A stretch of 64,000 bases of DNA. Origin: Halosegnis marinus (GTDB lineage Archaea; Halobacteriota; Halobacteria; Halobacteriales; Haloarculaceae). Within the stretch, counting starts at the first letter, position 1, and every line of letters starts with the position of its first letter. This document shows positions 28,463 through 54,983 of the stretch, piece after piece. The stretch is from assembly GCF_029338355.1 (NCBI RefSeq), contig NZ_CP119802.1, positions 1,674,001 to 1,738,000 of the forward strand, written 5' to 3'. Below the pieces are notes generated by a model. That model was not told the DNA's origin. It searched no databases and worked only from the letters and a program-made list of their open reading frames with translations. A program made the translations under genes and the position numbers.

Positions 28463-28665
28463 TGATTTACTCGCACCCCGCGCGGGCATCAAAAGGAATA
28501 ATTATCTTCATTGCTCTCAATCTGAGTACGTCCGAATGATACCTGTCGACTCCCGTGTGACCGTTATTGGCGGTGCGGGAGTCCCAGCTGCCCGTCTCGT
28601 CAAGGAGTCGTGGTGGCGCGGCTCCGACAACGCATCCGCCCTCTGTCGTGCGGAACGCGACTCGC

Positions 28666-37604: not shown

Positions 37605-38377
37605 CGCATTTGCCACCCGCTGGACTCAAGCTCTTTGCGCTCCCCGGCGGTCGGGAATGAGTGATACGAGCCGGACCCAGTCATCTCCTCGAGCGTGATC
37701 TCACCTGCTGCAATACGTGAGAGTGTCTCGGCAGACAGCCTCCCACCTATCCGCTTCCCTCTTTGGATAACCCCGTGGAGGCTGTTTAGATCGGTCACGT
37801 CAAACGTCGTTTGGGCTGCAATTCGACCGGCGTCGAGTTCCTCAACCATCTCGTGGATCGTCACACCCACCTCCGTCTCGCCGTGGTACAGTGCCCAAAA
37901 CGTCGGCATCATCCCACGGTACTTTGGCAGCTCAGCGGTGTGGACGTTGAGACATCCCCAGCTTGGAGCGGAGAGCAGCGACTCATCGAAGATTTCGGGG
38001 GCACTCGCGGATAGAACCACGTCGATCTCCTTTTCTTCCACAGAATCTACGAACTCCACCGTGTTTACGCTCTGAACGTGATCGACCGGAACGCCGTGTG
38101 ATTTCGAAACTCTGCCGACCGAACATCGTCTCACGCCAACGGTGTCGAGCAGGGTCCGTGACACGTACGAGACGCCGTGACGGAGGAACCCGCCGGCCCC
38201 GAACAGCCGATATGTTCGCCAGACGAGCTCCGGAAACGACTCGTTGAACGGATCAAGACACACGACCCGCGACACCGTAACGTCCTCACCCAGCTGTTCG
38301 AAGAACTCCTCAAGCAGCAAGGGGACGTAGAATGGATCGTCCTGTGTCACTATAAGCACATCTAATTTCGTGGACAT
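37601..38377 (-). CDS. Sugar N-formyltransferase-like protein
   Basis: A 258-residue formyltransferase-family protein with Rossmann-like N-terminus (LDVLIVTQDDPFYVPLLLEE) and a catalytic region GCLNVHTAELPKYRGMMPTFW with the Asn-x-His pair, followed by EELDAGRIAAQ with the catalytic Asp. All three residues are present, unlike the copy at 32130-32912. Such enzymes transfer formyl from N10-formyltetrahydrofolate to the amine of a nucleotide-linked amino sugar. It is coupled to the downstream deacetylase, so the free amine could be generated and formylated in sequence. Confidence 0.87.
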   Translation of the reverse strand: MSTKLDVLIVTQDDPFYVPLLLEEFFEQLGEDVTVSRVVCLDPFNESFPELVWRTYRLFGAGGFLRHGVSYVSRTLLDTVGVRRCSVGRVSKSHGVPVDHVQSVNTVEFVDSVEEKEIDVVLSASAPEIFDESLLSAPSWGCLNVHTAELPKYRGMMPTFWALYHGETEVGVTIHEMVEELDAGRIAAQTTFDVTDLNSLHGVIQRGKRIGGRLSAETLSRIAAGEITLEEMTGSGSYHSFPTAGERKELESSGWQMR

Positions 38378-38563: not shown

Positions 38564-40816
38564 CTATACGGTGACGTTCCCCCCCGTATTGACAGCCTGC
38601 TCCGACACCCGTACCGTCTCTTCACTAACAGTGTAGTTACCTGGGTACGGGACGGTAACCCGGTAGCTCCCGTCCGCCCTGACCCTGACTTTGCGCTCGT
38701 AGGTGACAGACCGGTCATTAAGTTTCAGGGTTGTCGTCACAGTAATAGTTGAGCTCGGTGCTGCATTCCCTGAGATGGTCGCCCCGGGTACGAGCGTGAA
38801 TACACGATATTGCCCCGAAACGTGGACTGCACGGTAGTGTGCGAGCCCAGTCGCGTTCGTGGTCCGACTACCGAATGCGGCCAGTTGTGCGCCAACGCTC
38901 CCCGGTGGCGTCGCTTCTCCGGCGAATACGACGAACCCAGTCCGATCGCGCAGTCGCTCGTACCAGCGCTCGGGGTCTTCGCTGACAAGAAACCGTGCGT
39001 AGTTGTCCTGTGCGAAGGTGTACGAACGCGACTCGCCGTTCACGAAGTAGTTATACATCCTGTTGCGGTCCCACTGGCTGAATACGTAATCTTGCGGATA
39101 CTCCCAGCCCGCCTCGTCTGAGTACCCGTTCATCCATGCTGCAGTTTGGTATTGGGTATCGGTGACTGTGAGTTGGTTGATTTTAATTGGGACCTGCACA
39201 ATGCCTAACCCACCGACGAGCAGGAACAGCACGAGTAGTGTGATTATTTGCCGTCGCCCCGGAACAACGAACGACCGTCCGTCTGAGCTTGGGTCAAATG
39301 GAACTGGAGGCCGTGCTACGTCGATACGTTCGGCAAGATGGACGAACCCGAGCCCGGCGAACAGCGCGGAAAATATCGAAAACTCACCAACGAAGCGAAT
39401 CTGGAGTGTTGCCAGTCCAAGGAGGTACCACCCAAAGACTACCGGTACAACCCAGCGAAGGTCCTCAAGCGCCCTCCAAGACGCCCACGCCAAATATGGG
39501 ACTGCAAGAACGAGAACGAAGCCGAACAGGAGCAACCAACCGAACGACGGGCCGAAGAGGTTCTGGGTCTCGACAATCACCCCTTCACGGACCAACCTGA
39601 CGGTCACGCTCCGCACGACCAACCGCCAGAGATCGGGACGCAGAACCGACACCAGTCCGATTGCCAGACCCCCAGCAAAGACCTCTCCGAGAAACACATA
39701 CCGTGCGGTCAGCTCCGTCCTGTGAACAGCCTCACCGATGGCTGCGACAGCAAGGCCACCCCCCAGCACAATCAACGGCGCAGCCGCCCCCAGCGACGTG
39801 TGCCACCCGAGCACCGTGTGGACAATCCAGACGACTACACCACCTCCCCCAACCCCCAACAGTACGGGTGCTATCGTTCTGGCTGGCGATCGACTATGAT
39901 AAACGGCTAGGATGGACAGTACGGCTATTGTGAGTCCGACCGGGATGAGTAGCAAGACACTCGCGTCCCAGGCGAGCGTCTGTCCGGCCACACCTACCCC
40001 CAACCCACAGACCCCGAGAATGGTTTGATCGGACCGGTGTGCGCTGGCGATTAACACGGCCATCGACAGCACGACAAGTGCGAGCCAGATATAATCGAAG
40101 GCGTGGTGGTCTGCGAACCCGAGACTCGTACGCATCGCGTGGCCGGGGAGGACGCCGAGAAGTGCGACCGAAGCAATGCCAACTCGCTGGTCACCGCTAA
40201 TCTTGACACCCAGCAGGTAGAGCATGACTGCGGTGAGACCGGCGGAGACGACCGGATACCAGCTCATAACATGCCCCACCGCTGCTCTTGTCCCCCCGAA
40301 CACCTCTGCCCCCGCCCATAACGCCACGATTAACAGTGGTTCCCCATTTGCCACGCCTCCCGGGAGATTGCCCACCGATATTTCTGAACCGCTGACCAGC
40401 TGCTCAACCCAGTATCTGTACAGGTACGGATCGTTCCCAGAGAGAATGATGGTTCCCTCCTGAAAAATCCTTGGCCAAGAGACCAAGCGAAGCGCAATGA
40501 CAAGTAGTACTGCGCCACCGAGTGTGGCGGTAAGCTGCGGGTCCAGCGAGGGGACTGAAATCCTCGGGCCGGCCTCGCCCCCCGTTTCGAGATCACTGTC
40601 TAGCGCTCGACGGACGGCCTCCCGGTCAACGACGCGGTAGGCTCCGTCCTCGGTTTTCGTAATCGCACTTGATGCAGCAATCTCACCGAACGTACCTGAG
40701 CTGAGGTTCAGATCATCGAACCTGAACGGCTCGTCGGCAGCAAGAACCGCACGAAATGCGGACTCAAGCTCGGGCCGATTATCCACGAGTGAGCGAACCT
40801 CGCGGGTGATACTCAT
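38564..40816 (-). CDS. STT3/AglB-like oligosaccharyltransferase paralogue with N-terminal winged-helix-like domain
   Basis: A 750-residue protein. Residues 1-75 look like a small winged-helix-like domain (FRFDDLNLSSGTFGEIAASS; GAYRVVDREAVRRAL). Then come about 12 membrane segments, with STT3 landmarks: SGNDPYLYRYW at 126-136 in the first external loop, and SLGFADHH at 231-238. A soluble C-terminal domain starts near 560. The STT3/AglB WWDYG sequon-binding motif is replaced by QWDRNRMYNYF at W582. Canonical haloarchaeal AglB is longer (over 900 residues). It could transfer the island's glycan to protein or another acceptor. It shares 27-nt TATA-to-ATG spacing with its paralogue at 49578-51843. 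Confidence 0.75.
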   Translation of the reverse strand: MSITREVRSLVDNRPELESAFRAVLAADEPFRFDDLNLSSGTFGEIAASSAITKTEDGAYRVVDREAVRRALDSDLETGGEAGPRISVPSLDPQLTATLGGAVLLVIALRLVSWPRIFQEGTIILSGNDPYLYRYWVEQLVSGSEISVGNLPGGVANGEPLLIVALWAGAEVFGGTRAAVGHVMSWYPVVSAGLTAVMLYLLGVKISGDQRVGIASVALLGVLPGHAMRTSLGFADHHAFDYIWLALVVLSMAVLIASAHRSDQTILGVCGLGVGVAGQTLAWDASVLLLIPVGLTIAVLSILAVYHSRSPARTIAPVLLGVGGGGVVVWIVHTVLGWHTSLGAAAPLIVLGGGLAVAAIGEAVHRTELTARYVFLGEVFAGGLAIGLVSVLRPDLWRLVVRSVTVRLVREGVIVETQNLFGPSFGWLLLFGFVLVLAVPYLAWASWRALEDLRWVVPVVFGWYLLGLATLQIRFVGEFSIFSALFAGLGFVHLAERIDVARPPVPFDPSSDGRSFVVPGRRQIITLLVLFLLVGGLGIVQVPIKINQLTVTDTQYQTAAWMNGYSDEAGWEYPQDYVFSQWDRNRMYNYFVNGESRSYTFAQDNYARFLVSEDPERWYERLRDRTGFVVFAGEATPPGSVGAQLAAFGSRTTNATGLAHYRAVHVSGQYRVFTLVPGATISGNAAPSSTITVTTTLKLNDRSVTYERKVRVRADGSYRVTVPYPGNYTVSEETVRVSEQAVNTGGNVTV

Positions 40817-40838
40817 GAAAGGACCTCCAACGTGTTGT

Positions 40839-40848
40839 GAATAAATCC
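40839..40848 (-). promoter_or_regulatory. TATA-like box of the first STT3-like gene
   Basis: The minus-strand GGATTTATTC lies about 27 nt before the ATG at 40816, fitting a leaderless or near-leaderless transcript. A GGAGGTCC (minus strand, 40821-40828) also precedes the start. The same ATTTATTC and spacing recur at the second STT3-like gene. Confidence 0.55.
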
Positions 40849-40926
40849 ACCGCCTTCGAGATTACTCGGGAAAGCTATTAGTACACGGCTACAGCGACCG
40901 GCTCTCTTGCCATCGCCTGAAGTGGG

Positions 40927-42366
40927 TCATTTCTCATCGTCTCGAAATGCGTATACTACGTCTCTCCCTACCATCCAGAGCTGTCTGACGAGTATCTTTA
41001 GATCGAACCAGAAAGACTGTTGCCGAATGTACGCGATATCGTGCCGGAGCTTCTTTTCAGGGTTGAATCCCGTGATACCGTTGATTTGTGCGAGGCCTGT
41101 CAGTCCTGGCTTCACGAACCACCGGCGCCGCCACTTTTCGGTCCCTTCCTCTATCTCGTTGTCCAGTTCCGGACGTTCTGGCCGAGGCCCTACGACGCTC
41201 ATTTCGCCGCGGAGGATCGCCAGTAACTGCGGAATCTCGTCAAAATGTGTCCGCCGCAGGACTCGCCCGACACGCGTCACCCGCGGATCCGTCCCGCCAG
41301 CATCCTCTTCGCTAAGTGTTGCTCCGGTCTCCATCTCTGCCTCCGTCACCATGCTCCGAAACTTCGCGACGGTGAACATATTCCCGAACGCCGCGGTCCT
41401 GGTTTGGCGGTACAGCACTGGTCCCGGACTATCGAGTTTAATTGCTGCCGCAATCACGAGTAGCAGCGGACTCAGTATGATTAACGCCGTCACAGCAAAT
41501 GTTAGGTCGAAAATGCGCTTCGTGATGTGATCGAGCCAGTCCCACGGCTCCAACTCAATATCTACTAACTGACCGTCTGCTGTCCCCGTAGTCAACACCA
41601 CATCGGCGTGATCACGATGTGCCTTGGCTGCGACACCGTGCTCGTAGCAGGTGTCAAGCGTCCCGAAGAACTCCGCTCTATCGGGCTGGGCGAAGGCGAG
41701 CACAGCCGTCCCGACATCATACTCTACAAGCACGTCTTCTAACCGTGACAAGCCGCCCAAGTTCGGCAACGCGTCCAGTTGGGTAGGTGACCCACCGTCG
41801 GTGAGCTCAGCGGGCACCACTGTCTGGTCGCCGGGTTCCTGATACGGCGACGGTGGGGACACGTACCCGAGGACAGTCCCCTCGACGACAGTCAAAATGT
41901 CCTCCATCGTCTCGGGGTCGTCGCCGACGATAATCGTCCGCTCACCCTCCGGATGTGGCCGCCGGCGAATCACGACGAACCACGCAGGTACAGCCATCAA
42001 CACCAACACCCCACTTACGAGCAACGTTGCCCGCGGGAGTGCATACGTGTAATCGAAGTAACCGATGGCCGCCATCGCCAGCAGCGCAACTGTCACGCGT
42101 TTCATCGCATACAGCCCGATATCGAGAATTCGACGCGGCCGCGGCTTATAGAGCGGAAACAGGGCGCTAACGACAACCACAGCTGCAATGCCCGCCTCGT
42201 AGGCAAACTCTTTGCCCGCCGATCCGTCGAAGGGAAGATGGCCGATAACGGGGATCATGGAAAACCCAGCCTGCACAACCTCGGTGTTCGCGACCCCCAC
42301 CGCGGCAACGGTCAACACGGCGACTCCGGCGACGCTCAACAGCCGGTACCGCCAGCCCCCGTCCAT
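40927..42366 (-). CDS. Polyprenyl-phosphate sugar transferase (WbaP/WcaJ-type)
   Basis: A 479-residue membrane protein that should start glycan synthesis by moving a sugar-phosphate onto a polyprenyl/dolichyl phosphate. The N-terminal half has about four hydrophobic helices and a CoA-binding-like region (GERTIIVGDDPETMEDIL). The C-terminal catalytic domain (from about residue 285) has TKRIFDLTFAVTALIILSPL, AKFRSMVTEAEM, DEIPQLLAILRGEMSVVGPRP and KPGLTGLAQINGITGF, as in bacterial sugar transferases PF02397. It marks the right end of the glycan island. The start ATG 42366 follows an AT-rich box by about 30 nt. Confidence 0.92.
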   Translation of the reverse strand: MDGGWRYRLLSVAGVAVLTVAAVGVANTEVVQAGFSMIPVIGHLPFDGSAGKEFAYEAGIAAVVVVSALFPLYKPRPRRILDIGLYAMKRVTVALLAMAAIGYFDYTYALPRATLLVSGVLVLMAVPAWFVVIRRRPHPEGERTIIVGDDPETMEDILTVVEGTVLGYVSPPSPYQEPGDQTVVPAELTDGGSPTQLDALPNLGGLSRLEDVLVEYDVGTAVLAFAQPDRAEFFGTLDTCYEHGVAAKAHRDHADVVLTTGTADGQLVDIELEPWDWLDHITKRIFDLTFAVTALIILSPLLLVIAAAIKLDSPGPVLYRQTRTAAFGNMFTVAKFRSMVTEAEMETGATLSEEDAGGTDPRVTRVGRVLRRTHFDEIPQLLAILRGEMSVVGPRPERPELDNEIEEGTEKWRRRWFVKPGLTGLAQINGITGFNPEKKLRHDIAYIRQQSFWFDLKILVRQLWMVGRDVVYAFRDDEK

Positions 42367-42597
42367 TATATAATACCTGCCACACCAGCGGTTTAATCAT
42401 ATCGGCTTCTCGGCTGAGATAGCACTGTTACCATGCAAGATTGCAAACCGACTACCGGCCAGCTTGATGCTATACCGAGCAGTCCTCCGCATGAATCTCA
42501 AGCGCTTCACACCACCATAGCCACTGATTTATATTCCAGAACGGCTTTGACAGTCCTCCGAGTTACCGGAAATAATGCCTCCACAGGGTGAGCCGTC

Positions 42598-43989
42598 GTG
42601 GAACTAATCGACGACAAGGGAAACCTCTTCGGCGTCATCAACGTCGTTGACGCGCTCGTCGTCCTGTTCGTCCTCGCGGCCGTCGTCGCAGGCGCAGCAC
42701 TCGTCTTCCAACCGGATTCGGGGCCAGAAACCGCGACGACGAACGTTACCCTCGACCTGGGCACCCAGCCAACCTACATCGTCTCGGCGATCAACGCGGG
42801 CGATACGTACAACGCCACGCAGAACAGCCGCCTCACCCTCACGGACGTATACCTCACGCCGCAGGGCGATCGAACACGCGTCATCGTCCGCGCCGAAGTA
42901 CAAGCACCCACAGACGACGGCATCTCCTACGCGAACGCCCCGCTCCGGCTGGGCCGCACGCTCACGATTGCCACGAACCGCTATCAGGTGCGCGGCCAAC
43001 TCCGCGACGTCGGTCGAAACGACACCCTCACGCGCGAATCAACGACGGTCGTCATCCGCGACCGAATAGGCGCGGCCGACGCCCGCGAACTCGCGGCCGG
43101 CGATGAAATCCGACTCGCCGGCCGGACCGTCGCGACCATCGAGGACGTCGCCGTCTACGCGACGGGCAACCCGACGCAACGCGACGTATTCGTCGAAGCG
43201 ACGCTCGAAACCTACCGCTCACAGGATGAACGCCGGTTCGGCGGCACCCCCCTACACCGTGGCCAGACGGTCACCCTCCCGACCGCCGAGTACACGCTGA
43301 ACGGCCAAATTGAACGCGTCGACGGTGGCCTCGCGCTCGACAGCGCCGACGTCGTCATCGAGACCACTGTCGACGCCGAGACGGCCCAGCGACTCGCCGC
43401 GGGCGACACCGCGACGGTCGCGGGCTACGACACCGCCGAAGTGGCGAGCGTCACGGCGTACGCCACCCGCGACCCCGACCGCGTGCGCGTCGTCGTCGGC
43501 CTCTCGCTGCGGACGCTCGCGTACGGCGAGCGCGAACGCTTCGGCACGACACCGATTCAGCGCGGCGCCGGCGTCACCGTCGACACCGGCCAGTACACGC
43601 TCTCCGGGCGCATCGAGCGGACGGGCACGCTCGAACCGGCCGGCACGGCGACCACCCGCACGGTCACCCTGCGGATGAGCGAGGTGCGCGAGGACATGGC
43701 CGATGCTATCGAACCGGGTATGACCGAGCGTGCGAACGGCGAGACGGTCGCCCGCGTCACCGCGGTGGATACGCAGCCGTCGCTCATCATCACGACCGGC
43801 GAGAATGGCTCCGTGAACGTCGTCGACCACCCGTTCAACCGAGAGGTAGAAATCACGACGGCGCTTCGAGTGCGCGAGACGACGACCGGCCCACGGTTCA
43901 AAGGCGAGCCGCTCCGGCAGGGCTCGACGGTCGTCATCGACCTCGGCACCATCGTTATCGAAGCAGAGGTCGTCAGCGTCAGTGGCTAA
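42598..43989 (+). CDS. DUF4330-like membrane-anchored protein with four internal repeats
   Basis: A 463-residue protein with an N-terminal membrane anchor (NVVDALVVLFVLAAVVAGAALVF) preceded by the LIDDKGNLFGVIN motif usual for DUF4330. The rest is a large outer domain with four repeats of about 95 residues. Each begins with an A-x-x-L-A-x-G-D pattern (residues about 161, 260, and less clear ones), continues through V-x-V-x-A-Y-A-T and ends FG-x-TP-x-x-R-G-x-x-V. Examples: RRFGGTPLHRGQTVTL and ERFGTTPIQRGAGVTV. Start is GTG 42598, 70 nt after a TTTATATT box. Acidic surface-type composition. Function is unknown. Confidence 0.75.
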   Translation: MELIDDKGNLFGVINVVDALVVLFVLAAVVAGAALVFQPDSGPETATTNVTLDLGTQPTYIVSAINAGDTYNATQNSRLTLTDVYLTPQGDRTRVIVRAEVQAPTDDGISYANAPLRLGRTLTIATNRYQVRGQLRDVGRNDTLTRESTTVVIRDRIGAADARELAAGDEIRLAGRTVATIEDVAVYATGNPTQRDVFVEATLETYRSQDERRFGGTPLHRGQTVTLPTAEYTLNGQIERVDGGLALDSADVVIETTVDAETAQRLAAGDTATVAGYDTAEVASVTAYATRDPDRVRVVVGLSLRTLAYGERERFGTTPIQRGAGVTVDTGQYTLSGRIERTGTLEPAGTATTRTVTLRMSEVREDMADAIEPGMTERANGETVARVTAVDTQPSLIITTGENGSVNVVDHPFNREVEITTALRVRETTTGPRFKGEPLRQGSTVVIDLGTIVIEAEVVSVSG

Positions 43990-44058
43990 CCTCGGTTCGT
44001 CCGGCAGGGCCACTGTCGCAAACGTGGCCTTCTTATGCCGGCCAGTCAACTCACGTGT

Positions 44059-44538
44059 ATGACGCCGGCTGACAAATCCGAGGAGTCGGCCGGTCCCACC
44101 GAGAAGACACGCGACCGCGTCACCAAGGGCAGCGACCTACTGGGCGCGTCCCGGGCTGTCAGTGATCGCGTCGGCACCGCCGTCCGCAACTCGTATCTCT
44201 ACCGCTGGCTCACCAAGGAACCCGAGCCGGAGGTCATCGTTATCGACCTTCGGGAGACCTGGACTGTCGGCCCGATTATCGCGCTGTTTGACCGGCTCAT
44301 CGAGTGGCTCGCTCCCTACTGGCGCGAGTCGACGCCGAAGCGAGCACTCGATCGAGTCGTCACACTCGCCGACCGGACCGCCGGGACGCGTGCCGGACAG
44401 TTACTCGGAACATTCCTTGCACCGCCGGAGCCCCCCGACTCCGACGGCGATGGCCCCGCCGACGCTCACGGCGACGCGGACTCGTCGCTATCAGCAGAAA
44501 CGAGCGACGGAGAGACACCGCCGCCAAGTAATCGTTGA
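44059..44538 (+). CDS. Small hypothetical protein with acidic tail
   Basis: A 159-residue protein with one conserved-looking core: VIVIDLRETWTVGPIIALFDRLIEWLAPYW, possibly amphipathic or membrane-associated. A basic helix-rich part (RESTPKRALDRVVTLADRTAG) follows, and the tail is acidic and disordered (PPDSDGDGPADAHGDADSS). Start ATG 44059 preferred over 44035. It is 70 nt after the DUF4330-like gene and may be in the same transcript. I do not recognise the family. Confidence 0.6.
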   Translation: MTPADKSEESAGPTEKTRDRVTKGSDLLGASRAVSDRVGTAVRNSYLYRWLTKEPEPEVIVIDLRETWTVGPIIALFDRLIEWLAPYWRESTPKRALDRVVTLADRTAGTRAGQLLGTFLAPPEPPDSDGDGPADAHGDADSSLSAETSDGETPPPSNR

Positions 44539-44565
44539 CGCGGCGATGGCTAACACGCCGAACGC

Positions 44566-45414
44566 CTACGCGCCCGCGATGTCCGTGTTCACGATCGCGT
44601 CCGTGTCCACGTCGAGCGCCGAGAGCACCTCCGCGACGGAGCTCTCGCTCGCTCCTTCGCCGCTCGTATCGTCGACGGCGCCCAACACCGCCCGCTCCAG
44701 CTCATCGAGTCGCTCGGTCACCTTCTCCAGGTTCAGCACGCGCGGCGCGAGCGTCAGATACGTCGTGTCGCCGCGGTCGTAGAGGTCCTCGGTCGTCATC
44801 TCCGGGAGCCGGCCAGAGGCGTCGTCCGCGTCGGACTCGTCCCCCTCGTCGCCCTCGACCGTCACGTCCAGCTCGCCGAGGCCGGCGACCGTGACGGGCG
44901 ACGCAAGCTCCACGGGGCCGTCACAGATGGCCTGGGGGAGAATCGTGGTCGCGCCGTCGAGCCGCGTGTCGCCGTGGCTCCGGAACGTGTAACACAGCGA
45001 GTCCTCGACGGCGAGGCTCCGGTCGGCCGTGACGATGCCGAGGACGACACAGTTCTCTAAGACCAACTCGGTGCCGACGACGTTGCCGCGGACGACGCAG
45101 TCGGTCAGGCGGACGCGCTTGCCGGTGACCGTCCCCTCGACGGTCGCGTCCGAGCCGACGACCTTGCCGGGCGTGCCGACCTCGCCGTGGACGCGGCCGC
45201 CCTCCAGTTCGACGGCGTCGGCGGCCATCACCGACCCCTCGACGGTCGCGTCGGCGTCGGTCTCGACGGTCGCCCCGTAGACGCTCCCCTGGACGGTCGC
45301 GCCCTCGCGGATGCGAACGGGGCGGTCGAGCTCCGCCTGCACCGTCGGAATCACCTTCCCGTCGAACGTCTCGCCCGCCTCGACGACCGCGCGGGTCCGC
45401 TCGATGTCAGCCAT
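44566..45414 (-). CDS. Bactofilin-like polymer-forming beta-helix protein
   Basis: A 282-residue protein, last gene of a four-gene operon. Residues about 30-150 show short beta-helix repeats of bactofilins: REGATVQGSVYGATVETDAD, ATVEGSVMAADAVELEGG, RVHGEVGTPGKVVGSDATVE and RLTDCVVRGNVVGTELVLEN. A less regular part and an acidic linker follow; the C-terminus (225-282) is helical and may be coiled coil (VLNLEKVTERLDELERAVL). Bactofilins self-assemble into filaments and scaffold envelope processes; in haloarchaea related halofilins affect cell shape. No membrane segment. The ATG overlaps the preceding stop by one base. Confidence 0.75.
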   Translation of the reverse strand: MADIERTRAVVEAGETFDGKVIPTVQAELDRPVRIREGATVQGSVYGATVETDADATVEGSVMAADAVELEGGRVHGEVGTPGKVVGSDATVEGTVTGKRVRLTDCVVRGNVVGTELVLENCVVLGIVTADRSLAVEDSLCYTFRSHGDTRLDGATTILPQAICDGPVELASPVTVAGLGELDVTVEGDEGDESDADDASGRLPEMTTEDLYDRGDTTYLTLAPRVLNLEKVTERLDELERAVLGAVDDTSGEGASESSVAEVLSALDVDTDAIVNTDIAGA

Positions 45415-46367
45415 CAGTCGTCACCCCCTTCGATCCGCACCGGCACCGAGCCGTCGTCGGGCATCGCCTCGCGAACGGCCTCGCCGTACGACGGCGCGAG
45501 CGGCGTGGATTCGCTGTAGTCGGAGAGGTGTCGGGCCACCGCGTCGGCCGATAGCGACTCGGTTCGGCTCGGCTCCGAGACGCCCGGTGCGCCGGCCAGG
45601 AGCTGTTCCGCCCCCTCGAACGGGTCGAGCGAGACGCGACACCACTCGCTGTCGGCGTCCGTCGCGAGCGACGACGGCACGACGACCTCGCGCTGGGTGA
45701 CGCCGTCTGCCTCGTACTCGACGACGTAATAGGGGACCTGCAGGCGCTCGCGCTCGTCGGTCGGGAGCCTGGTTCCCTCGGCGTCGAACCGGTGGTCGCG
45801 GACGGTCTCGATGAGCGACTCCTGGCGGTCCACGAAGTCGTGGATCGTCTGGACGGTGTCGCCCGCGGCCTCGCGGACGCGGTCGCTCCGCTCGTCGCCC
45901 ACGGATTCGTTGTGCGCCTGGAGTGTCCGCCACGTCGGCGTCACCTGCTCGGTGAACGGCTCCTCGATGCCGGCCTCGAACTGCTCCTCGTCGAGCGCGA
46001 AGATGTGTTCGCCGAGGTCGCGGATGCGCTCGCGGGCCTTCTCGTCGAGTTCGCGCTGCTGGCGCTCGTAGCGGTCGCCGATGGAGGCGAGCCGTTCGTC
46101 GAGTTCCGCCTGTTCGGCGTCGATCTGCTCGTGTTCGGCCTCGATCTGTGGCTCCACCGCTTTCACCTCCATCACGTGGTCCATCAGCTTCAGCTCCGCC
46201 TGTGCGTGGATGTTCTCGTGAATCGCATCCCGAACCGTCTCGGCCGCCTCGCGGATCACCGAGTGGACCTTCTTGACCTCGCCGGTGAGCGTCTGGACGT
46301 CCTCGCGGAGCTTCGCGATTGTCTTGTTAATCGCCTTCAGCGGCTTGTGGAGGTCGTCGTTCGCCAT
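45414..46367 (-). CDS. Soluble coiled-coil protein of the scaffold operon
   Basis: A 317-residue acidic protein. Residues 5-130 are long heptad-rich helices (INKTIAKLREDVQTLTGEVKK; EQAELDERLASIGDRYERQ), then more helices to about 190. The C-terminal part (about 195-300) is beta-rich with RLQVPYYVVEYEADGVTQRE and a conserved-looking CRVSLDPFEGAEQLL. No membrane segment. It overlaps both neighbours by one base (stop-start TGATG), so all three downstream genes are translationally coupled. Likely an assembly or linker factor. No homology recognised. Confidence 0.75.
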   Translation of the reverse strand: MANDDLHKPLKAINKTIAKLREDVQTLTGEVKKVHSVIREAAETVRDAIHENIHAQAELKLMDHVMEVKAVEPQIEAEHEQIDAEQAELDERLASIGDRYERQQRELDEKARERIRDLGEHIFALDEEQFEAGIEEPFTEQVTPTWRTLQAHNESVGDERSDRVREAAGDTVQTIHDFVDRQESLIETVRDHRFDAEGTRLPTDERERLQVPYYVVEYEADGVTQREVVVPSSLATDADSEWCRVSLDPFEGAEQLLAGAPGVSEPSRTESLSADAVARHLSDYSESTPLAPSYGEAVREAMPDDGSVPVRIEGGDD

Positions 46368-48052
46368 CAGTCGTCACCCCCCTCGTAGGCAGTAGCTCGC
46401 ATCAGCGGCAGCCGGTCTTTCCCCATCTTGAACTGGTCAATGCGGTCGATCAGTCCCGTGCCGCCGCGGGTCTCTATCATCCAGTTCTCCCGGTGGTGAC
46501 GCTTCTCCATGTCCATCTCCTCGCTGTGTAGCTCGCCCCGCTGTTGCATCTCCGCCATCGTCCGCCGGTCCTCGCGCTCCTGCCGCGCCATGAACATCTC
46601 GGCTTCGCGGCGCCGCTTTTCGGCTCGCATCGTCTCGGCTTTCTCCTCGGCCGCTTTCTGTGCGGCGTCGATGCGTTCCTGCTCCTGGTTGCGCGTCTCC
46701 TCCAGGATGCGGTCGGTTTTGCGGTCGATCTCCGCGAACGACTCCTCGACCTCGCCGCGGAACGCCTCCTTGCGCTCCTCCTGGATGCGGTCGTACTTCA
46801 CCATCAGTTCGCCGATCTCGTCGACCTTCCCTCGCGATGCCTTGGCGTCGGTCTTCAGGTCGCGGATGCGCGAGCGGAGGTCGCGGATGCGGTCGGTCGA
46901 AGAGCGGATCTCCTCGCTGCGCTGCTCGAACTCCCGCTCTTCGAGCTCGGCCTTCTGATCCTCGATGTTCTCGTAGATGCGGCGGCGCTCGTCGTCCTTC
47001 TCGATCCACAGCTGGTCCCACACCGGGTTGACGAGGTCGTCCTTGATGCGGTGGCGCGGGACGACCGCCTCCGTCTCGTGGTGGCTCCGGCAGGTGTCGC
47101 AGTACCACTCGCCGGCCTCGGGGTCCGAGAGCTCGACGAGCGAGTCGATCTCGTCGGTCAGACAGTCCGGGCAGTAGAAGTTGTAGCTCACCAGCCCGAA
47201 CGCGTCGGCGGTCGTCCCGATGTGGTTGTTCAACAGGTCGACGGCGGACTCGTGGGCGCCGGACAGCTCGCCGACGAGCTCGCGGCTCCGCTCGGAGACG
47301 GCTTCGAGCTCCGCGGCGCCGTCGGCGGTCGCGGCCATCCGTTCGAGTTCGGCGAGTTCCGCGACGTCGGCCTCGGCGTCGTCGGCGTCCACCTCGACGT
47401 CGGCGGCCACGGTCGTACCCTCATCGGCCCGTGAAGCGAACGCCTCGACGGCGGCCGCCTCGGGACCGCTCGCGGGCACGACGGGCGCCTCGACGGTCGT
47501 CCGGTTCGCGTTCTCGATCTCCGACTTGATGCCGTCGAGCGTCCGGGTGAACTCCGCCTCGACGTTCCGGTCGTGCGGCATTACAACCGGGAAGTCGCCC
47601 ATCGCGTCGAGTTCTTCGCGGACGGCGCCGACGGCGTCCTCGTCGTCGAGCCGTTCGAGGTCGAAGCTCGTCGTCTCGACGGAGTCGGTCGCGTCGTAGA
47701 CGACGACGCCCGCCTCGTCGGGAATCGTGTAGCCGGTCCAGTACCCCCGATCGACGCTCTTCACCGTGACGTCCGGCGTCTGTCGCTGCGCGTAGAGGTA
47801 GGCGCCACCGCCGGCGGCGAGCCCGAGAACTATCAGGACGGCGCCGACCGCGACGCCGACGTTGGCCGCGATGGCCCCGATACCGAGAACGACGCCGGCG
47901 ACCGCCGCCGCCGCACCCAGCCGGCGCGTCGAGCGCTGGTCGTCGAGCGCCGCCGACACCGGCTCCCGGAGGACCTCGTTGACGGCGAGCGCGCGGGCCC
48001 GCTCCTCGTCCACGGGGTCGTCGGCCTCGTAGAGGACATCCGTTACGCGCAT
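46367..48052 (-). CDS. Membrane-anchored zinc-ribbon coiled-coil protein of the scaffold operon
   Basis: A 561-residue protein. Two adjacent membrane helices lie at about residues 45-90 (LGAAAAVAGVVLGIGAIAAN; VGAVLIVLGLAAGGGAYLYA). A soluble domain follows with a zinc ribbon at about 293-325: FYCPDCLTDEIDS and EWYCDTCRSHHE. From about 345 to 530 there is a very long charged coiled coil (EERKEAFRGEVEESFAEIDR; QEQERIDAAQKAAEEKAETM). It resembles a membrane-bound rod. The ATG is at 48052. It overlaps the next gene's start by one base. No known family recognised; a scaffold or mechanosensing role is a guess. Confidence 0.75.
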   Translation of the reverse strand: MRVTDVLYEADDPVDEERARALAVNEVLREPVSAALDDQRSTRRLGAAAAVAGVVLGIGAIAANVGVAVGAVLIVLGLAAGGGAYLYAQRQTPDVTVKSVDRGYWTGYTIPDEAGVVVYDATDSVETTSFDLERLDDEDAVGAVREELDAMGDFPVVMPHDRNVEAEFTRTLDGIKSEIENANRTTVEAPVVPASGPEAAAVEAFASRADEGTTVAADVEVDADDAEADVAELAELERMAATADGAAELEAVSERSRELVGELSGAHESAVDLLNNHIGTTADAFGLVSYNFYCPDCLTDEIDSLVELSDPEAGEWYCDTCRSHHETEAVVPRHRIKDDLVNPVWDQLWIEKDDERRRIYENIEDQKAELEEREFEQRSEEIRSSTDRIRDLRSRIRDLKTDAKASRGKVDEIGELMVKYDRIQEERKEAFRGEVEESFAEIDRKTDRILEETRNQEQERIDAAQKAAEEKAETMRAEKRRREAEMFMARQEREDRRTMAEMQQRGELHSEEMDMEKRHHRENWMIETRGGTGLIDRIDQFKMGKDRLPLMRATAYEGGDD

Positions 48053-48172
48053 GTGTCCCCCTCCACCGAACCTGCGGCGGTGTCACGGTCGGTCGTCACC
48101 GCGCCGTCGGGCCGGATGCCCGACGACACGTCGGTTCCCCCTTCGTCTCGTGTGTGATATCGTCGCATGCTC

Positions 48173-49489
48173 TCAGTCGATGTTCCGCAGTGCCCGCGTG
48201 GCCGCTTTGCTCACGTCGCTGTTCGGGTCGAGCCGGGTCCGTTCGAGCGTCGCCCTGACGCCGTCGCTTCCGGTGCCGAGCCGCCCCAGCGCCTCACACG
48301 CCGCGACACGGACATCCGGGTCGTCGTCGTGCATCCGCTCGGTCAGGGCGTCGATTGCCGCCTGTGAGTGGACGCCGTCGCCCGCGTCGTCGGCGAGCGC
48401 CGCGACGGCCTCACGGCGGGTCGCGGGGTCGTCCGCGTGCAGCCGGTCGCGGTAGGCATCGACCGTCGCGTCGCCGGTCGACCCCGTCGTCGGCTCGTAC
48501 TCGCCGGCCGACGCGGTCTCGCCGGTCGTTTCCTCATCTCTCCCCGTCTCGTCGTTCGGACTGCTCGCTGTCGTTTCGTCGTCGTTCGCCGCGCTCGGCT
48601 CCGCCGTCTCGCTCGTGGACGCACGTGACTCGGTCGCGGTCGACGTCGTCGCCGTCGACGTCGTCGCCGTCGAGGTACCCGAGTCGGACGACGATACGGT
48701 AGCGCCGTCCGTCGGCTCCGCTGATGCCTCGGCGGAGGACTCCGTCGTCCCCGACCGGGTTGGCGCGTCGTCCGTCCGACCGCTCGCCGACCCCCACGTC
48801 GCGGGCCGTGTTCGGTACCCCGACCACAGCAGACCGGCGCTCGCGGCCGCGCCGCCGAGTAGCGCCGCCGGCTCGTAGCCGCCGGAGCCGAGCAGGGCGT
48901 AGCCGAGTGCTCCGGGACCGTCCCACAGGCCGACGACCGACGCGAGCAGGAAGTCGGGGAGCGAGCCCCGGATCAGATACGACGGGACGACGAACGCCGC
49001 CCACGCGGCGCCGAGATACCAGCCCCACGAACTCCCCCGAGTGAGGCCGAACGCGGCCGCGCCGGTCACGGCGACCGGGCCGACCACCCATATCGGCTGT
49101 GCGGCGACGGCCTCGATCGGCGAGAACGCCACGCCGTCGAGGTACAGCACCGGCGCGAAGACGTTCGCGACGACCGTGACGAGGCCCGCCACGAACAGGT
49201 GGCGACGGAACCGGAGTCGGCCGGCGTCCCTCGCCGTCGAGGCACCGAGTGTCGTCGCCGTCGCGGCGCTCGTTGCGGCCGTCCCGGCGTCGTCGGACTC
49301 GTCGTCGTCAGTTCCACCGCCCGTCGTCTCGGGCTCGGCCTCCGTGTCGTCGAGGTCGAACTCGTCCCACGTCTCGTCGTCTCCCCCGCGACGGCCGAGG
49401 ACCCAGCGGACGACCGTCACCGGCAGCAACAGGAGTTTGACGAACGCTCGAACTAGGAACCGTAGCAACTTCAGCGTGAAGTACACCAT
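48173..49489 (-). CDS. Membrane protein with C-terminal HEAT repeats, first gene of the scaffold operon
   Basis: A 438-residue protein. A hydrophobic amphipathic N-terminus (VYFTLKLLRFLVRAFVKLLL) and about five membrane segments between residues 95 and 230 (HLFVAGLVTVVANVFAPVLYL; PIWVVGPVAVTGAAAFGL; YLGAAWAAFVVPSYLI). A Ser/Thr/Asp linker follows, with a short tandem DNA repeat near 48636-48675. C-terminal HEAT repeats run from about 345 (DDPATRREAVAALADDAGD; DDDPDVRVAACEALGRLG). It lies 120 nt upstream of the zinc-ribbon gene on the same strand; I infer one operon. A similar HEAT/membrane protein occurs at 4335-5219. Confidence 0.75.
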   Translation of the reverse strand: MVYFTLKLLRFLVRAFVKLLLLPVTVVRWVLGRRGGDDETWDEFDLDDTEAEPETTGGGTDDDESDDAGTAATSAATATTLGASTARDAGRLRFRRHLFVAGLVTVVANVFAPVLYLDGVAFSPIEAVAAQPIWVVGPVAVTGAAAFGLTRGSSWGWYLGAAWAAFVVPSYLIRGSLPDFLLASVVGLWDGPGALGYALLGSGGYEPAALLGGAAASAGLLWSGYRTRPATWGSASGRTDDAPTRSGTTESSAEASAEPTDGATVSSSDSGTSTATTSTATTSTATESRASTSETAEPSAANDDETTASSPNDETGRDEETTGETASAGEYEPTTGSTGDATVDAYRDRLHADDPATRREAVAALADDAGDGVHSQAAIDALTERMHDDDPDVRVAACEALGRLGTGSDGVRATLERTRLDPNSDVSKAATRALRNID

Positions 49490-49577
49490 CTATCCCCCAC
49501 GGGAACACGGCACACGGGGGTCGGCAAAAATGTTCCGTCGGTGACAAGGGAGGGCGGAAACAGGATACCGGACCGGG

Positions 49578-51843
49578 CTACGCCGACACCGTCTCGCCGT
49601 CCTCGACCGCTGCGTCCTCGACGGTCACCGTCCGGTTCCCGATCTCGTACGTCGCGGCGTAGGGGACCGTCACCCGGTACGTGCCGTTCGCATCGACCGC
49701 GACCCGGCGCTCGTACGTGAACTCCGTCCCGCTCACCTCGACGGTCGCCGCGAGGTCGAGCGTCGTGTTCGCCGTCGCGTTGCCGACGACCGTCGCCCCC
49801 GGCACGAGCGTGAACGCGGTGTACTCGCCGTCCGGCGAGACGTGTATCGCCCGGTAGTGTGCCAACCCCGAGGCGTTCGCCGTCCGGCTCCCGTACGCCT
49901 CCAGCCGTTCCGCGATACTCCCCGACGGGGCGTCGAGGGTCGGGTACACGACGAAGCCCGCGCGCCCGCGGAGGCGTTCGTACCACGTCGTCTCGTTCGT
50001 CGACGCGAGGAACGACTCGTAGTTCGCGCGTGCGTAGCCGTACGAGCGTGCCTCCCCGCTCACGACGTAGTTGTACATGCGGTTGTTGCTCCACGGACTG
50101 AACACGTACGCCGGGCGGTCGCTCCGGTTCGCCGTCTCGGTGTATTCGTCGATGGCCGCGGCCGTGTCGTACATCGCGGGCGGCGTCGTTACCTGCCCGG
50201 TCTTGACGGGCACCTGGACGAGGCCGAGGCCGCCGACGAGCAGGAAGAGGACGACGAGCGCGCCGGCCTGTCGTGCCGACGGACGCGTCACGAGCGAGCC
50301 GTCGACCCCGGAATCGAACGGCTTCGGCAGGCGTGCCACGTCGATGCGCTCCGCGAGGTGGACGAACCCGAGGCCGGCGAAGACGCTAATGAACGTCGCG
50401 AACTCCCCGACGAACCGGATTTGGATCGCCGAGAGCGCGAAGAAGGCCCACGCGTAGACGACGGGGACGACCCACGCGTCGTCGTCGAGCGCGCGTCGCG
50501 TCGCCCAGACGAGATACGGGAGCGCGAGGAAGAGCACGAAGCCGAACAGCAGGAGCCAGCCCGCGGAGTCCGAGAACAGCCCCTTGCGTCTCGGCGATGG
50601 CGTCGGAGCGGAACAGCGCGGAGTCGGCCCGCGAGGTCAGCGTGTTCCACGCGTCGGGGAGGAAGACCGCGATGCCGCCGACGCTCACCGCCCCCGTCCC
50701 GAGAATCGCTCCCGTGGCCACGCGTGCGTCCGACCGTACCCGAAAGACGAGTTCGCCGACGACGAGCACGCCGAGGGCCCCCGCGAACAGGAGTGCCGGT
50801 GCCGACGCGACGACGGGCGTGTGCCAGCCGAGGCTCGTGTGGGCCAGCCACGTGAGTGCGCCCGCGCCGGCTAGCCCGACGAGCATCGGGGCCCCGGACC
50901 GGAGCGGCGACCTGTCGGCGCGAACCCACACGACGGCGAGCGTCGCGACGGCCAGGCCGACCGGAACCACCAGCAGCGGGCCGGCTTCCCACGCGAGCAC
51001 CTGGCCCGTGACGCCGACGGCGAGCCCGAGCGTCCCGAAGACGGTCCGTCCCGACCGGAGCTCGCCCCGGACGAGCGCGACGAGCGACAGCGCCGTGACG
51101 CCGAGCCACGGGTAGTCGAAGGCGTGGTGGTCGGCGAAGCCGAGGCTCGTTCGCAGTGCGTGGCCCGCGACGACCGCGAACATGACGACGGCCGCGAGCC
51201 CGACGCGGCGGTCCTCGGTGACCTCGGTCGCGAGCAGATACACGAGCGCGCCGGAGACGAGCGCCGAGACGACGGGGTACCACGCGAGCAGCGAGCCGGC
51301 GACGGCCTCGCCGCCGAGCACCGATGCGAGGAGCCACATCGTCGCGACGTAGAGCGGCTCGCCCTTCGCGACCGCGCCCGGCAGCGACGAGACGGTGAGG
51401 TCCGGGTTCGCCAGCAGCTGTTCGACCCAGTAGCGGTAGTAGTACGGGTCGTTCCCGGAGAGGACGACCGCGCTGTCTTGGAACACCGGGCCGACGGAGA
51501 ACACGGTTCGCAGGAGAACGACGAAGGCGAGCGCACCCGCGAGCGCGAGCGCGTGCATGAGATTGATGTCGAGACTCGGCGTCGCCAGCCCGGTTCCCGA
51601 TTCCGTCGGTTCCCGTCCGGTTTCGCCGGCGAGCCCTCGCCGGACGGCCTCGCGGTCCGCGACCCGGTAGCCGTCGTCGGTCTTCTCGACGACACCCGTC
51701 GAAACGACCTCGCCGAACGCGCCCGAGTCGATATCGAGGTCGTCGAAGGCGAACGGCTCCTCGGCCTCTACCACCGCCTCGACGGCGTCTTCGAGCGCGG
51801 GGCGCTCGTCGACCAGCTCCCGAACGTCCGCGGCGGTGACCAT
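49578..51843 (-). pseudogene. Second STT3/AglB-like gene, frameshifted by one base
   Basis: A 754-codon gene in two frames. Frame 1 runs from ATG 51843 and matches the paralogue at 38564-40816 throughout: winged-helix-like N-terminus (FAFDDLDIDSGAFGEVVSTG), SGNDPYYYRYW at 129-139, SLGFADHH at 233-240. At codon 421 the G4 run (complement of CCCC, 50580-50583) holds one extra G compared with the paralogue's reading, which shifts the frame. The second frame then continues intact (GWLLLFGFVLFLALPYLVWAT) to 49578. The WWDYG equivalent is W584-S-N-N (SPWSNNRMYNY). The clean downstream frame means a recent mutation or an assembly error. It lies just upstream of the divergent S-layer-like gene. Confidence 0.8.
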
Positions 51844-52130: not shown

Positions 52131-54983
52131 ATGACTGACACATCGACAAAGGTTCGCAGCCTGTTCCTGACGGCGCTGATGGTCGTCTCCGTCTTCGGAG
52201 GCACCATCGCGTTCGCCGGGAGCGCGGCTGCAGCTACGAACGCGCAGGCCGTCTCCCTGTCCAATACGACAATGGTGGGCGGTTCCTTCGCGGTAGATGA
52301 GAATACGACTGTAAACCACGACCTGGTGTTCAACGTTGATAACGTGAGCACCGACGGTGGCACGGACACAATCCGTGTTACCATCCCGGCTGGCGAGTAC
52401 TCCAGCCTCCAAGACGTGACCGTTACCAACCGCTCTGACAACAGCAATGTCGCTATTACCGGCAGCGCGGAGGTTGTCAACAACGGCCGGACGCTCACGT
52501 TCGACATCAGCGAGGACGGCAGCACCCAGGGTATCGACATCCAGGTTGCTGTCGACTTCACGGCTAACTGGCCCGAGGTCTCCTCGGACACCAGCGGCCC
52601 GCTGAACGTTGAGGTTCAGGACAGCCAGTTCGAGGATGTCGACGCCGACATCGCGACGCTCCTGATCCGCGACGACGCGACCACCTCGGCTGACTCCGGC
52701 ATCACGAACGGCACGACCTATTGGCAGGGCCAAGTTCTGACCTACGAGAACAGCTCCGCCATCTCTGCTAACGACGACGTCGAGATCCGCCGCGTCAGCG
52801 ACGACGGCCTCGTCACGCAGGTCGAGGCGAACTCCAACGGTCAGGTCACGATTCGCACGGGCAACCTCAACGGTAACTACTACGTTGAGGGCCCGAGCAA
52901 CAACCAGCTCGTCTTCTTCGAGGTCGCTGTCCAGACGCTGGACATCAGCTTCGACCAGGACAGTGTCCGCCTCGGTGGTGACGAGACGGCCAACCTGGAC
53001 GTCGAGTCCAACCGTGCGACCTACAACCACACCATCTCCGCGACGCTGGACGGCTCCGCTGTGAGCGCGAGCACGCTCCAGACGATTCTCGGTGGCGGTA
53101 CGGTTATCGACGACACGACGGTGCGTGTCCCCGGTTCCAACAGCCAGTCGCTGCCCGCTAACTTCAGCGCGGCACCGGCCGGCAACCTGACGCTGAGCGT
53201 CCAGGTCGAGGACTCCACTGCCTCCGACGACGCCAGCCTCACGATTAATCCGGCCATCGAGGGCCAGGCTAGCTTCACCAACAGCGTCTTCTCCGAGGAG
53301 GAGGGCGACGTTGCTGAGATAACATTCGACCTGCAGGGCTCCGACACGGCGACGGTTGTCGTCGGGTCCGACACGGTCAACTACAACGCGCAGGTTACGG
53401 TCGAGGATACGGACGGTGACGGCACCGTCACGCTCCAGATGAACACGTACCTCGCCGGCGTGGGCAACAACGAGAACAGCACCACGACCGATGTGTACAC
53501 GGCTGTCGGTGACGACACCGTGACCAACGAGGTCCGCTACACCGAGGCCGTTCCGAATCGCCTCGCCGCGACCGATTACGACCTCAGCCTCCTGCTCGGC
53601 GGCGCTGACGGCTCCGAGGAGGACGTTGCGGTTCTCGCGCTGACCGACCGCCAGACGACCGGTGCCCAGACGTGGACGGCACCCGGTAACGCTGGCTCGG
53701 TCAACGTCGACAAGTACGACGGGAACGTCACCGAGCTTCTCGATGACGTCACCCAGCGCAACCAGATCGCCGAGGGCGACCTCTCGGTGATTCAGGTGCA
53801 GGCTTCGGGTATCTACGCGTACCTGGGCGACAACACGAGCGACCTCTCCAGCGACATCACGGTCAACGTGACGCAGGAGGGCACCTCGATCAACCAGGCT
53901 CCGAAGACCATCCCGGTCACGAACGCGCAGCTCATCGAGGACGCCGACAACAACCAGTTCTTCCTGGTGTTCGACGCGGACCAGATGGCTGACCGTAACG
54001 GCAACTCCGTCGGCATCGACGCCGGCGAGACGTACAACGTGACCTTCACGCTCGACAACGAGTACACCGGCTCCTCGACCGAGTCCGTCTCGACGACCTT
54101 CAACGTCGTCGAGCGCACGGCCTCGTTCGATGTCGGCTCCGACGGTAACGTCACCGTCGAAGCCTCGGCCGGTCAGGAGATCACGGGCACGACGACCGCC
54201 GCGCCCGGTACGCCCATCACGGTGCGTGCCCGCGCGACCGGCTCCAGCCCGTTCCTGAAGTCCAACTCGACGACCGTCTCCGCGGACGGGACCTTCACGA
54301 CGACGTTCGACTTCACGAACGTCTCCGAGGGTACCGACTTCACGCTGAGCACGTCCACCTCCGGCCTCTCCGCTGAGGCTACCGGTGTCGTCGCTCCGCG
54401 CCCGACCGCGACGGTCAGCATCAACGACCAGACCACCGACGGCACGACCGTCACGGTCGCGTCCGCCAGCCTCTCCGAGGGTGGCTTCGTGACCATCCAC
54501 GACGGCTCGCTGCTCGACGGTGCGACGTTCGACTCCGTCCGCGGCACGTCCGCCTACCTGGACGCCGGGGACAGCTCGAGCATCGAAGTCTCCCTCGACA
54601 CTCCGTACGAGGAGGACGGCACGGTCATCGCCATGCCGCACCTCGACACGGACGGTGACGAGACGTACGACTTCGTCACCTCCGAGGGTGCCGACGACGG
54701 TCCGTACACGACCGCCGAAGGCGACATCGTCACGGACTCCGCGTCCCTGACGGTTGACGCCGGCGCGACGCCGACGCCGACCGCGACGGCCACGCCGACG
54801 GCCACGGCCACTGCGACGGCCACGCCGACGGCGACCGCCACCGCGACGGCTACGGCGACCGCCACCGCCACCGCGACGGCGACTGACACCGCGACCGAGA
54901 CGCCGGGCCAGCCCGGCTTCGGCTTCGCTGTCGCCATCATCGCGCTCGTCGGTGCCGCGCTCCTGGCGCTGCGCCGCGAGTAA
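52131..54983 (+). CDS. PGF-CTERM surface glycoprotein (S-layer-like)
   Basis: A 950-residue secreted protein. A Sec signal (SLFLTALMVVSVFGGTIAFAG) with cleavage near AAAATN is followed by an acidic Thr/Ser/Asp-rich extracellular region. It contains many N-x-S/T sequons (for example SNTTMVGG, ENTTVNHD, NNENSTTT), several beta-sandwich-like repeats and a C-terminal adhesion-like domain (about residues 730-890). Then comes a Thr-Ala-Pro spacer (about 876-920), and the PGF-CTERM tail GQPGFGFAVAIIALVGAALL ending in LRRE. The PGF tail directs removal and lipid attachment by archaeosortase ArtA. It has the length and layout of haloarchaeal S-layer glycoproteins. ATG 52131 gives the signal peptide. 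Confidence 0.92.
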   Translation: MTDTSTKVRSLFLTALMVVSVFGGTIAFAGSAAAATNAQAVSLSNTTMVGGSFAVDENTTVNHDLVFNVDNVSTDGGTDTIRVTIPAGEYSSLQDVTVTNRSDNSNVAITGSAEVVNNGRTLTFDISEDGSTQGIDIQVAVDFTANWPEVSSDTSGPLNVEVQDSQFEDVDADIATLLIRDDATTSADSGITNGTTYWQGQVLTYENSSAISANDDVEIRRVSDDGLVTQVEANSNGQVTIRTGNLNGNYYVEGPSNNQLVFFEVAVQTLDISFDQDSVRLGGDETANLDVESNRATYNHTISATLDGSAVSASTLQTILGGGTVIDDTTVRVPGSNSQSLPANFSAAPAGNLTLSVQVEDSTASDDASLTINPAIEGQASFTNSVFSEEEGDVAEITFDLQGSDTATVVVGSDTVNYNAQVTVEDTDGDGTVTLQMNTYLAGVGNNENSTTTDVYTAVGDDTVTNEVRYTEAVPNRLAATDYDLSLLLGGADGSEEDVAVLALTDRQTTGAQTWTAPGNAGSVNVDKYDGNVTELLDDVTQRNQIAEGDLSVIQVQASGIYAYLGDNTSDLSSDITVNVTQEGTSINQAPKTIPVTNAQLIEDADNNQFFLVFDADQMADRNGNSVGIDAGETYNVTFTLDNEYTGSSTESVSTTFNVVERTASFDVGSDGNVTVEASAGQEITGTTTAAPGTPITVRARATGSSPFLKSNSTTVSADGTFTTTFDFTNVSEGTDFTLSTSTSGLSAEATGVVAPRPTATVSINDQTTDGTTVTVASASLSEGGFVTIHDGSLLDGATFDSVRGTSAYLDAGDSSSIEVSLDTPYEEDGTVIAMPHLDTDGDETYDFVTSEGADDGPYTTAEGDIVTDSASLTVDAGATPTPTATATPTATATATATPTATATATATATATATATATDTATETPGQPGFGFAVAIIALVGAALLALRRE
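54760..54905 (+). repeat. Low-complexity Thr-Ala-Pro coding repeat
   Basis: About 145 bp of irregular 6- to 12-bp repeats of CGACGGCCAC and ACGCCGACG type encode the TATATATP-like spacer of the S-layer-like protein. Such spacers cross the wall region and are probably O-glycosylated; the DNA is prone to slippage. Confidence 0.85.

Follow-up and report, generated by a model that had tools for sequence, protein, structure and literature searches.

Two WWDYG-less oligosaccharyltransferases in Halosegnis marinus

The stretch of DNA analysed here (the window) comprises 64 kb of the Halosegnis marinus genome with 65% G+C, and contains two genes for oligosaccharyltransferases (OSTs) that lack the WWDYG motif, OST-A and OST-B. 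Both belong to an OST subfamily specific to Halobacteriales, named OST2 here, which has kept the fold and the catalytic residues of known OSTs, has lost WWDYG, and occurs in gene neighbourhoods of its own, some of them linked to S-layer genes. OST-A (38564–40816, on the minus strand, as are all parts of both genes) is intact and encodes a protein of 750 residues with the STT3/AglB fold. Its residues 1–75 (40592–40816) form a winged-helix domain that is predicted, from its position ahead of the first membrane helix, to lie in the cytosol. The first external loop carries GNDPY (residues 127–131, 40424–40438) with the catalytic Asp129, which is invariant across OST2, while DHH of the second external loop (residues 236–238, 40103–40111) is part of GFADHH and begins with Asp236. 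A TIxE-like motif, VIVE (residues 413–416, 39569–39580), ends in the nearly invariant Glu416, and QWDRNRMYN (residues 581–589, 39050–39076), a form of the OST2 motif xW(G/S/D)xNRxYN, takes the place of WWDYGH.

OST-B is split by a +1 frameshift at a GGGG run (50580–50583). The N-terminal part (50581–51843) stays in frame for 421 codons until the frameshift and the C-terminal part (49578–50579) contains PWSNNRMYNY; the frames join straight after IAETQG, the site of the TIxE-like motif, and the two parts sum to about 750 residues. The frameshift is either a pseudogenising mutation or an assembly error. Intact relatives closest to OST-B are present in three loci of genomes of the same genus, where the N-terminal part matches at 64–65%.

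An earlier note on this DNA had described two proteins of about 750 residues, which is correct for OST-A; OST-B is not a single open reading frame. The other features it had reported from the letters are present in both genes, namely the core motifs GNDPY and GFADHH (followed in OST-B by IAE), the replacement of WWDYG, and an N-terminal winged helix of about 75 residues. Its placement of the genes was likewise accurate, with OST-A inside a glycan gene cluster and OST-B 287 bp from an S-layer-like gene.

Fold, active site and distribution of OST2

The STT3 family PF02516 (gathering threshold 24.5 bits) matches OST-A with 32.5 bits and the N-terminal part of OST-B with 23.8 bits, slightly under the threshold, and OST-A also scores above the threshold of PF18079, the long peripheral domain of AglB. 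Against TIGR04154 (archaeo_STT3), by contrast, OST-A reaches 123 bits and OST2 of Halobacterium 141 bits, both far below the curated cut-off of 450, whereas the canonical AglB encoded elsewhere in the H. marinus genome scores 788. TIGR04154 scores are bimodal in 39 related genomes: nearly all have one AglB at about 600–950 bits, and roughly half have extra copies at about 55–130 bits; AglBs of the genomes that also encode OST2 score 700–950. Relatives of OST-A, nearly all of them intact like OST-A itself, are present in 208 of 392 genomes of the order, and OST2 coexists with canonical AglB wherever that was checked. When an OST2 profile was run against 295 genomes of the phylum, intact members scored at least 677 bits and all came from Halobacteriales; elsewhere scores were at most 125 and represent cross-matches to ordinary AglB-type proteins. 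The distinct OST-like subfamily suspected in the earlier note is therefore real, and profile searches leave it within the STT3/AglB family. RefSeq labels its members “STT3 domain-containing protein” or, if extended, LamG-like, and a search of open-access papers found none describing OST2 as a second family. Ten members have a C-terminal extension and reach about 960–1000 residues; the LamG-like naming of those that are plasmid-borne suggests a fused sugar-binding domain.

An AlphaFold2 model of OST-A built from 52 family members has a predicted local distance difference test score (pLDDT) of 93.6. Structurally it matches A. fulgidus AglB best, with Z 36.8 across 584 residues. STT3 of human and yeast reaches a Z of about 33 and PglB one of 27, above DPY19 (24.8) and PMT (23.6); a PDB sequence search with OST-A returned spurious matches to repeat proteins only. 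Neither of the two outcomes that the earlier note had named as refutations, placement outside the STT3/AglB family and absence of a structural match at the catalytic site, was observed. The N-terminal 75 residues are modelled as H-H-H-E-E-H, and all 50 best matches found with VIA are winged-helix proteins (top Z 7.5); a Foldseek search with this domain found nothing at E<0.001.

In OSTs the Glu of the TIxE motif and further acidic residues serve catalysis, the Glu taking part in activation of the acceptor Asn. Asp129, His237 and Arg474 are invariant among the 52 OST2 members, and Asp236 and Glu416 are conserved in at least 90%; in the TIxE motif the Ile is kept as well, while the Thr is mostly not. 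The WWDYGH site differs: the motif is present in 30 of 30 AglBs and in none of 67 OST2 proteins, all 67 of which have xW(G/S/D)xNRxYN instead. Compared with WWDYGH, the first Trp is lost and the second kept in every member, the Asp is kept in 5/67, Gly has become Asn in 63/67 and His has become Arg in 67/67; Asn589 never varies. The W-x-N/D-N pattern that had been suggested is better written as W-[GSD]-x-N-R-x-[YF]-N; the consensus is WGxNR, with PWSNN of OST-B and QWDRN of OST-A being less typical. A DGGK motif was found in neither of the sequence sets compared and was not used. Since the replacement recurs in all 67 homologues, as WWDYGH does in all 30 AglBs, it is not due to chance. In known OSTs Trp-Trp-Asp and a residue of the DK/MI motif form the pocket for Ser/Thr at position +2 (PMC3703281, PMC8342417). 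Because the catalytic residues persist and this pocket is gone, catalysis looks kept, while reading of the sequon looks lost or changed.

Gene neighbourhood, S-layer linkage and mature N-termini

The neighbourhood of OST2 was compared over about 9 kb at 71 OST2 loci, which include one plasmid twice, and at 20 AglB loci. The commonest neighbour is a PF02397 sugar-phosphotransferase, present at 41/71 OST2 loci versus 0/20 AglB loci (p 7e-7) and often at a distance of at most 300 bp. A UppP/BacA phosphatase occurs at 14 of the 71 OST2 loci (0/20 for AglB, p 0.02) and a DUF4330 protein at 12 (again 0/20). By established enzymology, lipid-pyrophosphate sugars are the products of PF02397 enzymes, and recycling of lipid-pyrophosphate is the task of UppP. 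For AglB, the haloarchaeal pathway that has been characterised relies on a dolichol monophosphate donor (PMC8674786).

OST2 is furthermore linked to the S-layer glycoprotein gene csg: among 30 genomes having both, OST2 lies within 10 kb of csg in ten, where chance would give about one (p 1e-8 to 1e-6). Examples of the distance are 0.2 kb in G475, 0.5 in G519, 0.9 in G257, 1.3 in G296, 2.6 in G052 and 3.3 in G064. On a plasmid of Haloplanus GDY1 a csg of the HVO_2072 family, OST2 and an undecaprenyl-pyrophosphate phosphatase stand together, and OST2 is also found near S-layer genes on plasmids of Salinigranum rubrum and Salinibaculum.

In the window, the gene upstream of OST-A encodes a PF02397, TIGR03025-like polyprenyl-phosphate sugar-1-phosphate transferase (40927–42366, minus strand), with a lipid-pyrophosphate sugar as its expected product. 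The DUF4330 gene lies at 42598–43989 (plus strand); together with a small downstream protein (42598–44538) it recurs at 12–14 OST2 loci. The glycan island of OST-A also includes a Wzx/MurJ-type flippase (27047–28462, plus strand) and a polytopic membrane protein (28567–30000, plus strand) without a Pfam or NCBIfam match, which from its appearance may be a Wzy-type polymerase. Two pairs of a formyltransferase and a polysaccharide deacetylase (32130–33694 and 36795–38377) suggest N-formylated or deacetylated amino sugars, and a sulfatase-superfamily protein (30850–32133) belongs to a family seen at about 13 OST2 loci. The S-layer-like surface glycoprotein next to OST-B (52131–54983, plus strand) has a haloarchaeal signal peptide, a BGTF surface domain and a PGF-CTERM, starts with (A)TNAQ, and is by analogy a likely acceptor. 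Close to it lies a gene for the archaellum assembly protein ArlJ/FlaJ (57196–58911, 659 bits).

OST2 is present in 4 of 13 Halobacterium genomes. Three species share a block of OST2, GlmS, two GlmU-like nucleotidyltransferases and the phosphotransferase (L158:8803-16876, L097:4236-11185, L162:8854-16912), with csg 3–4 kb away in two of them. To judge from its genes, the block would amount to a supply of N-acetylhexosamine (HexNAc) together with loading of the lipid. In one Halobacterium genome (G095), OST2 remnants, in pieces that are 53–60% identical (L173-L175, L177, L183), lie between two csg copies. Identification of G064 as H. salinarum was considered and rejected: its bacteriorhodopsin is 100% identical, but a published S-layer peptide matches in only 23 of 29 residues and the plasmid matches are mostly transposon genes, so that G064 is taken as no more than a close relative.

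In Halorubrum the S-layer signal peptide is nearly constant and ends in AAPAAA, so that the mature start can be read in the 14 genomes with this csg type. An Asn is found at mature position 2 (position 3 in G495, AVNDGS) in 7/7 genomes with OST2 and in 0/7 without it (p 3e-4; p 0.002 for exactly position 2). Only one of these seven Asn residues is part of an N-x-S/T sequon, the others reading NAD, NAG, NAG, NDG, NSG and NQG. The presence of OST2 is intermixed on the Halorubrum csg tree, with at least five changes. Across Haloferacaceae the association is 10/18 with OST2 versus 1/17 without (p 0.002). Elsewhere, csg of G064 starts with ANAD and one copy in G151 with ANEV. A general association across families was weak outside Halorubrum and was dropped; within Halorubrum, the tracking of OST2 by Asn-2 is suggestive.

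Proposed role, alternatives and known systems

The Asn-2 glycan of Halobacterium is reportedly known from work by Lechner, Wieland and Sumper, and by Zeitler in 1998. The H. salinarum S-layer has two N-glycans, one of which is a repeating-unit glycan attached to Asn-2 via GalNAc. Its lipid carrier is dolichol pyrophosphate, bacitracin blocks it, and it survives replacement of Ser-4 by Val, Leu or Asn (PMC2952790). According to a 2010 review, just one OST gene was known (PMC2952790); in 2013 a novel OST was proposed (PMC3871713), and the role of AglB for this glycan was still unclear in 2019 (PMC6591318). OST2 agrees with this glycan in its likely donor chemistry, in the neighbouring genes for HexNAc supply, in gene location and in its lost pocket, and is a strong candidate for the Asn-2 enzyme.

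On balance, and with modest confidence, we favour the reading that OST2 is a second OST of Halobacteriales apart from AglB, which transfers lipid-pyrophosphate-linked glycans to Asn of surface proteins without the Trp-Trp-Asp pocket. The polytopic sugar-phosphotransferase would place hexose- or HexNAc-phosphate on the lipid carrier to give a lipid-pyrophosphate sugar, on which glycosyltransferases, with a flippase and possibly a polymerase in some clusters, would build and flip a glycan, possibly of repeating units. Outside the membrane OST2 would then transfer the glycan to Asn in surface glycoproteins, the S-layer protein among them, and would rely on the customary Asp/Glu/metal site to activate the amide; a UppP-like phosphatase may recycle the lipid-pyrophosphate in some clusters. 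Since OST2 is without the pocket for Ser/Thr at +2, the acceptor is expected to be chosen by other cues, for example an Asn near the mature N-terminus. We infer that transfer to surface glycoproteins is probably at Asn and probably without Ser/Thr at +2; loss of the pocket in every member, the pyrophosphate-lipid and S-layer neighbours and the published Ser-tolerant Asn-2 site concur in pointing to an acceptor other than N-x-S/T. The narrower proposal, put forward tentatively and with less confidence, is that OST2 is a sequon-independent N-OST for lipid-pyrophosphate repeating-unit glycans at the extreme N-terminal Asn of S-layer proteins, and in Halobacterium would be the enzyme for the Asn-2 glycan that has been missing since the 1980s–1990s.

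Several observations weigh against the favoured reading. About 60 of the 71 OST2 loci have no csg-type gene within 9 kb, and some clusters are without phosphotransferase or UppP. S-layer proteins adjoining OST2 in G296, G475 and G160 do not have the N-terminal Asn. The Halorubrum sample is small, at 14 genomes, and yields three well-supported independent contrasts (five on the best tree), all concordant, with a sign test p of 0.25; in Haloferacaceae minus Halorubrum the association is 3/11 versus 1/10 (p 0.33). The Halobacterium evidence, moreover, comes from genomes such as G064, a close relative of H. salinarum with an identical bacteriorhodopsin but a csg that is only closely related.

Six of the seven OST2-linked Asn-2 sites of Halorubrum are not sequons and the Halobacterium site tolerates loss of its Ser (PMC2952790), which makes it rather unlikely that OST2 is a diverged N-OST still reading N-x-S/T, with a pocket rebuilt from W..NR.YN and a different donor, that adds a second glycan to ordinary sequons. 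Such an enzyme would be consistent with the invariant second Trp and the strongly conserved replacement motif, which may bind a side chain, with the 17 N-x-S/T motifs of the S-layer-like protein in the window, and with the sharing of sequons by two Haloferax pathways (PMC8241124). However, no member retains the first Trp and 62/67 are without the Asp, and it is Trp-Trp-Asp that forms the Ser/Thr pocket (PMC3703281). Less probable again is that OST2 is no N-OST, and transfers lipid-pyrophosphate glycans to Ser/Thr, a lipid or another surface acceptor as an O-linked glycosyltransferase or ligase. Haloarchaeal S-layer proteins do bear O-glycans (PMC2952790), the genes for which are unidentified (PMC10384203), OST2 clusters resemble Wzx/Wzy polysaccharide loci, and the sequon pocket is gone, but the TIxE-type Glu is conserved along with the Asp of the first external loop, and PMT and DPY19 are structurally more distant than OSTs. 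It is very improbable that OST2 is a paralogue without catalytic activity or with a regulatory function, in which the winged helix would act as regulator and the frameshift of OST-B (like the G095 remnants between csg copies) would signal decay, given the conservation of catalytic residues and of the new motif in 52–67 members from many genera and the intactness of OST-A and nearly all its relatives.

In STT3-type N-glycosylation, N-x-S/T is regarded as a nearly universal sequon. If the favoured reading is true, a widespread natural subfamily separates acceptor reading from catalysis, genes would be at hand for the forty-year-old puzzle of the two Halobacterium N-glycans, and OST2 might serve glycoengineering.

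Among known systems, the Haloferax Agl15 (low-salt) pathway also makes an AglB-independent S-layer N-glycan; OST2 was ruled out as its OST, as the Haloferax genomes tested gave no OST2 match. The OST expected for the Halobacterium Asn-2 glycan is without gene assignment in the literature examined. What is expected of it (a dolichol pyrophosphate donor, a HexNAc linkage, an Asn at the S-layer N-terminus as acceptor and no need for Ser at +2) agrees with the OST2 cluster and the loss of the pocket, and from this we infer the link to OST2. Bacterial PglB and eukaryotic STT3 share the OST fold (Z 27–33) and use pyrophosphate-linked donors, the donor type proposed for OST2, but they have WWDYG, read the sequon and are only about 13% identical in the structural alignment. 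With AglB (TIGR04154; A. fulgidus AglB-L, PDB 3WAJ/7E9S), OST2 shares the fold over 584–629 residues (Z about 36), the Asp of the first and D-x-H of the second external loop, the TIxE-type Glu and the C-terminal long peripheral domain PF18079; unlike AglB, OST2 is without WWDYG, carries an additional N-terminal winged helix and has a different gene neighbourhood.

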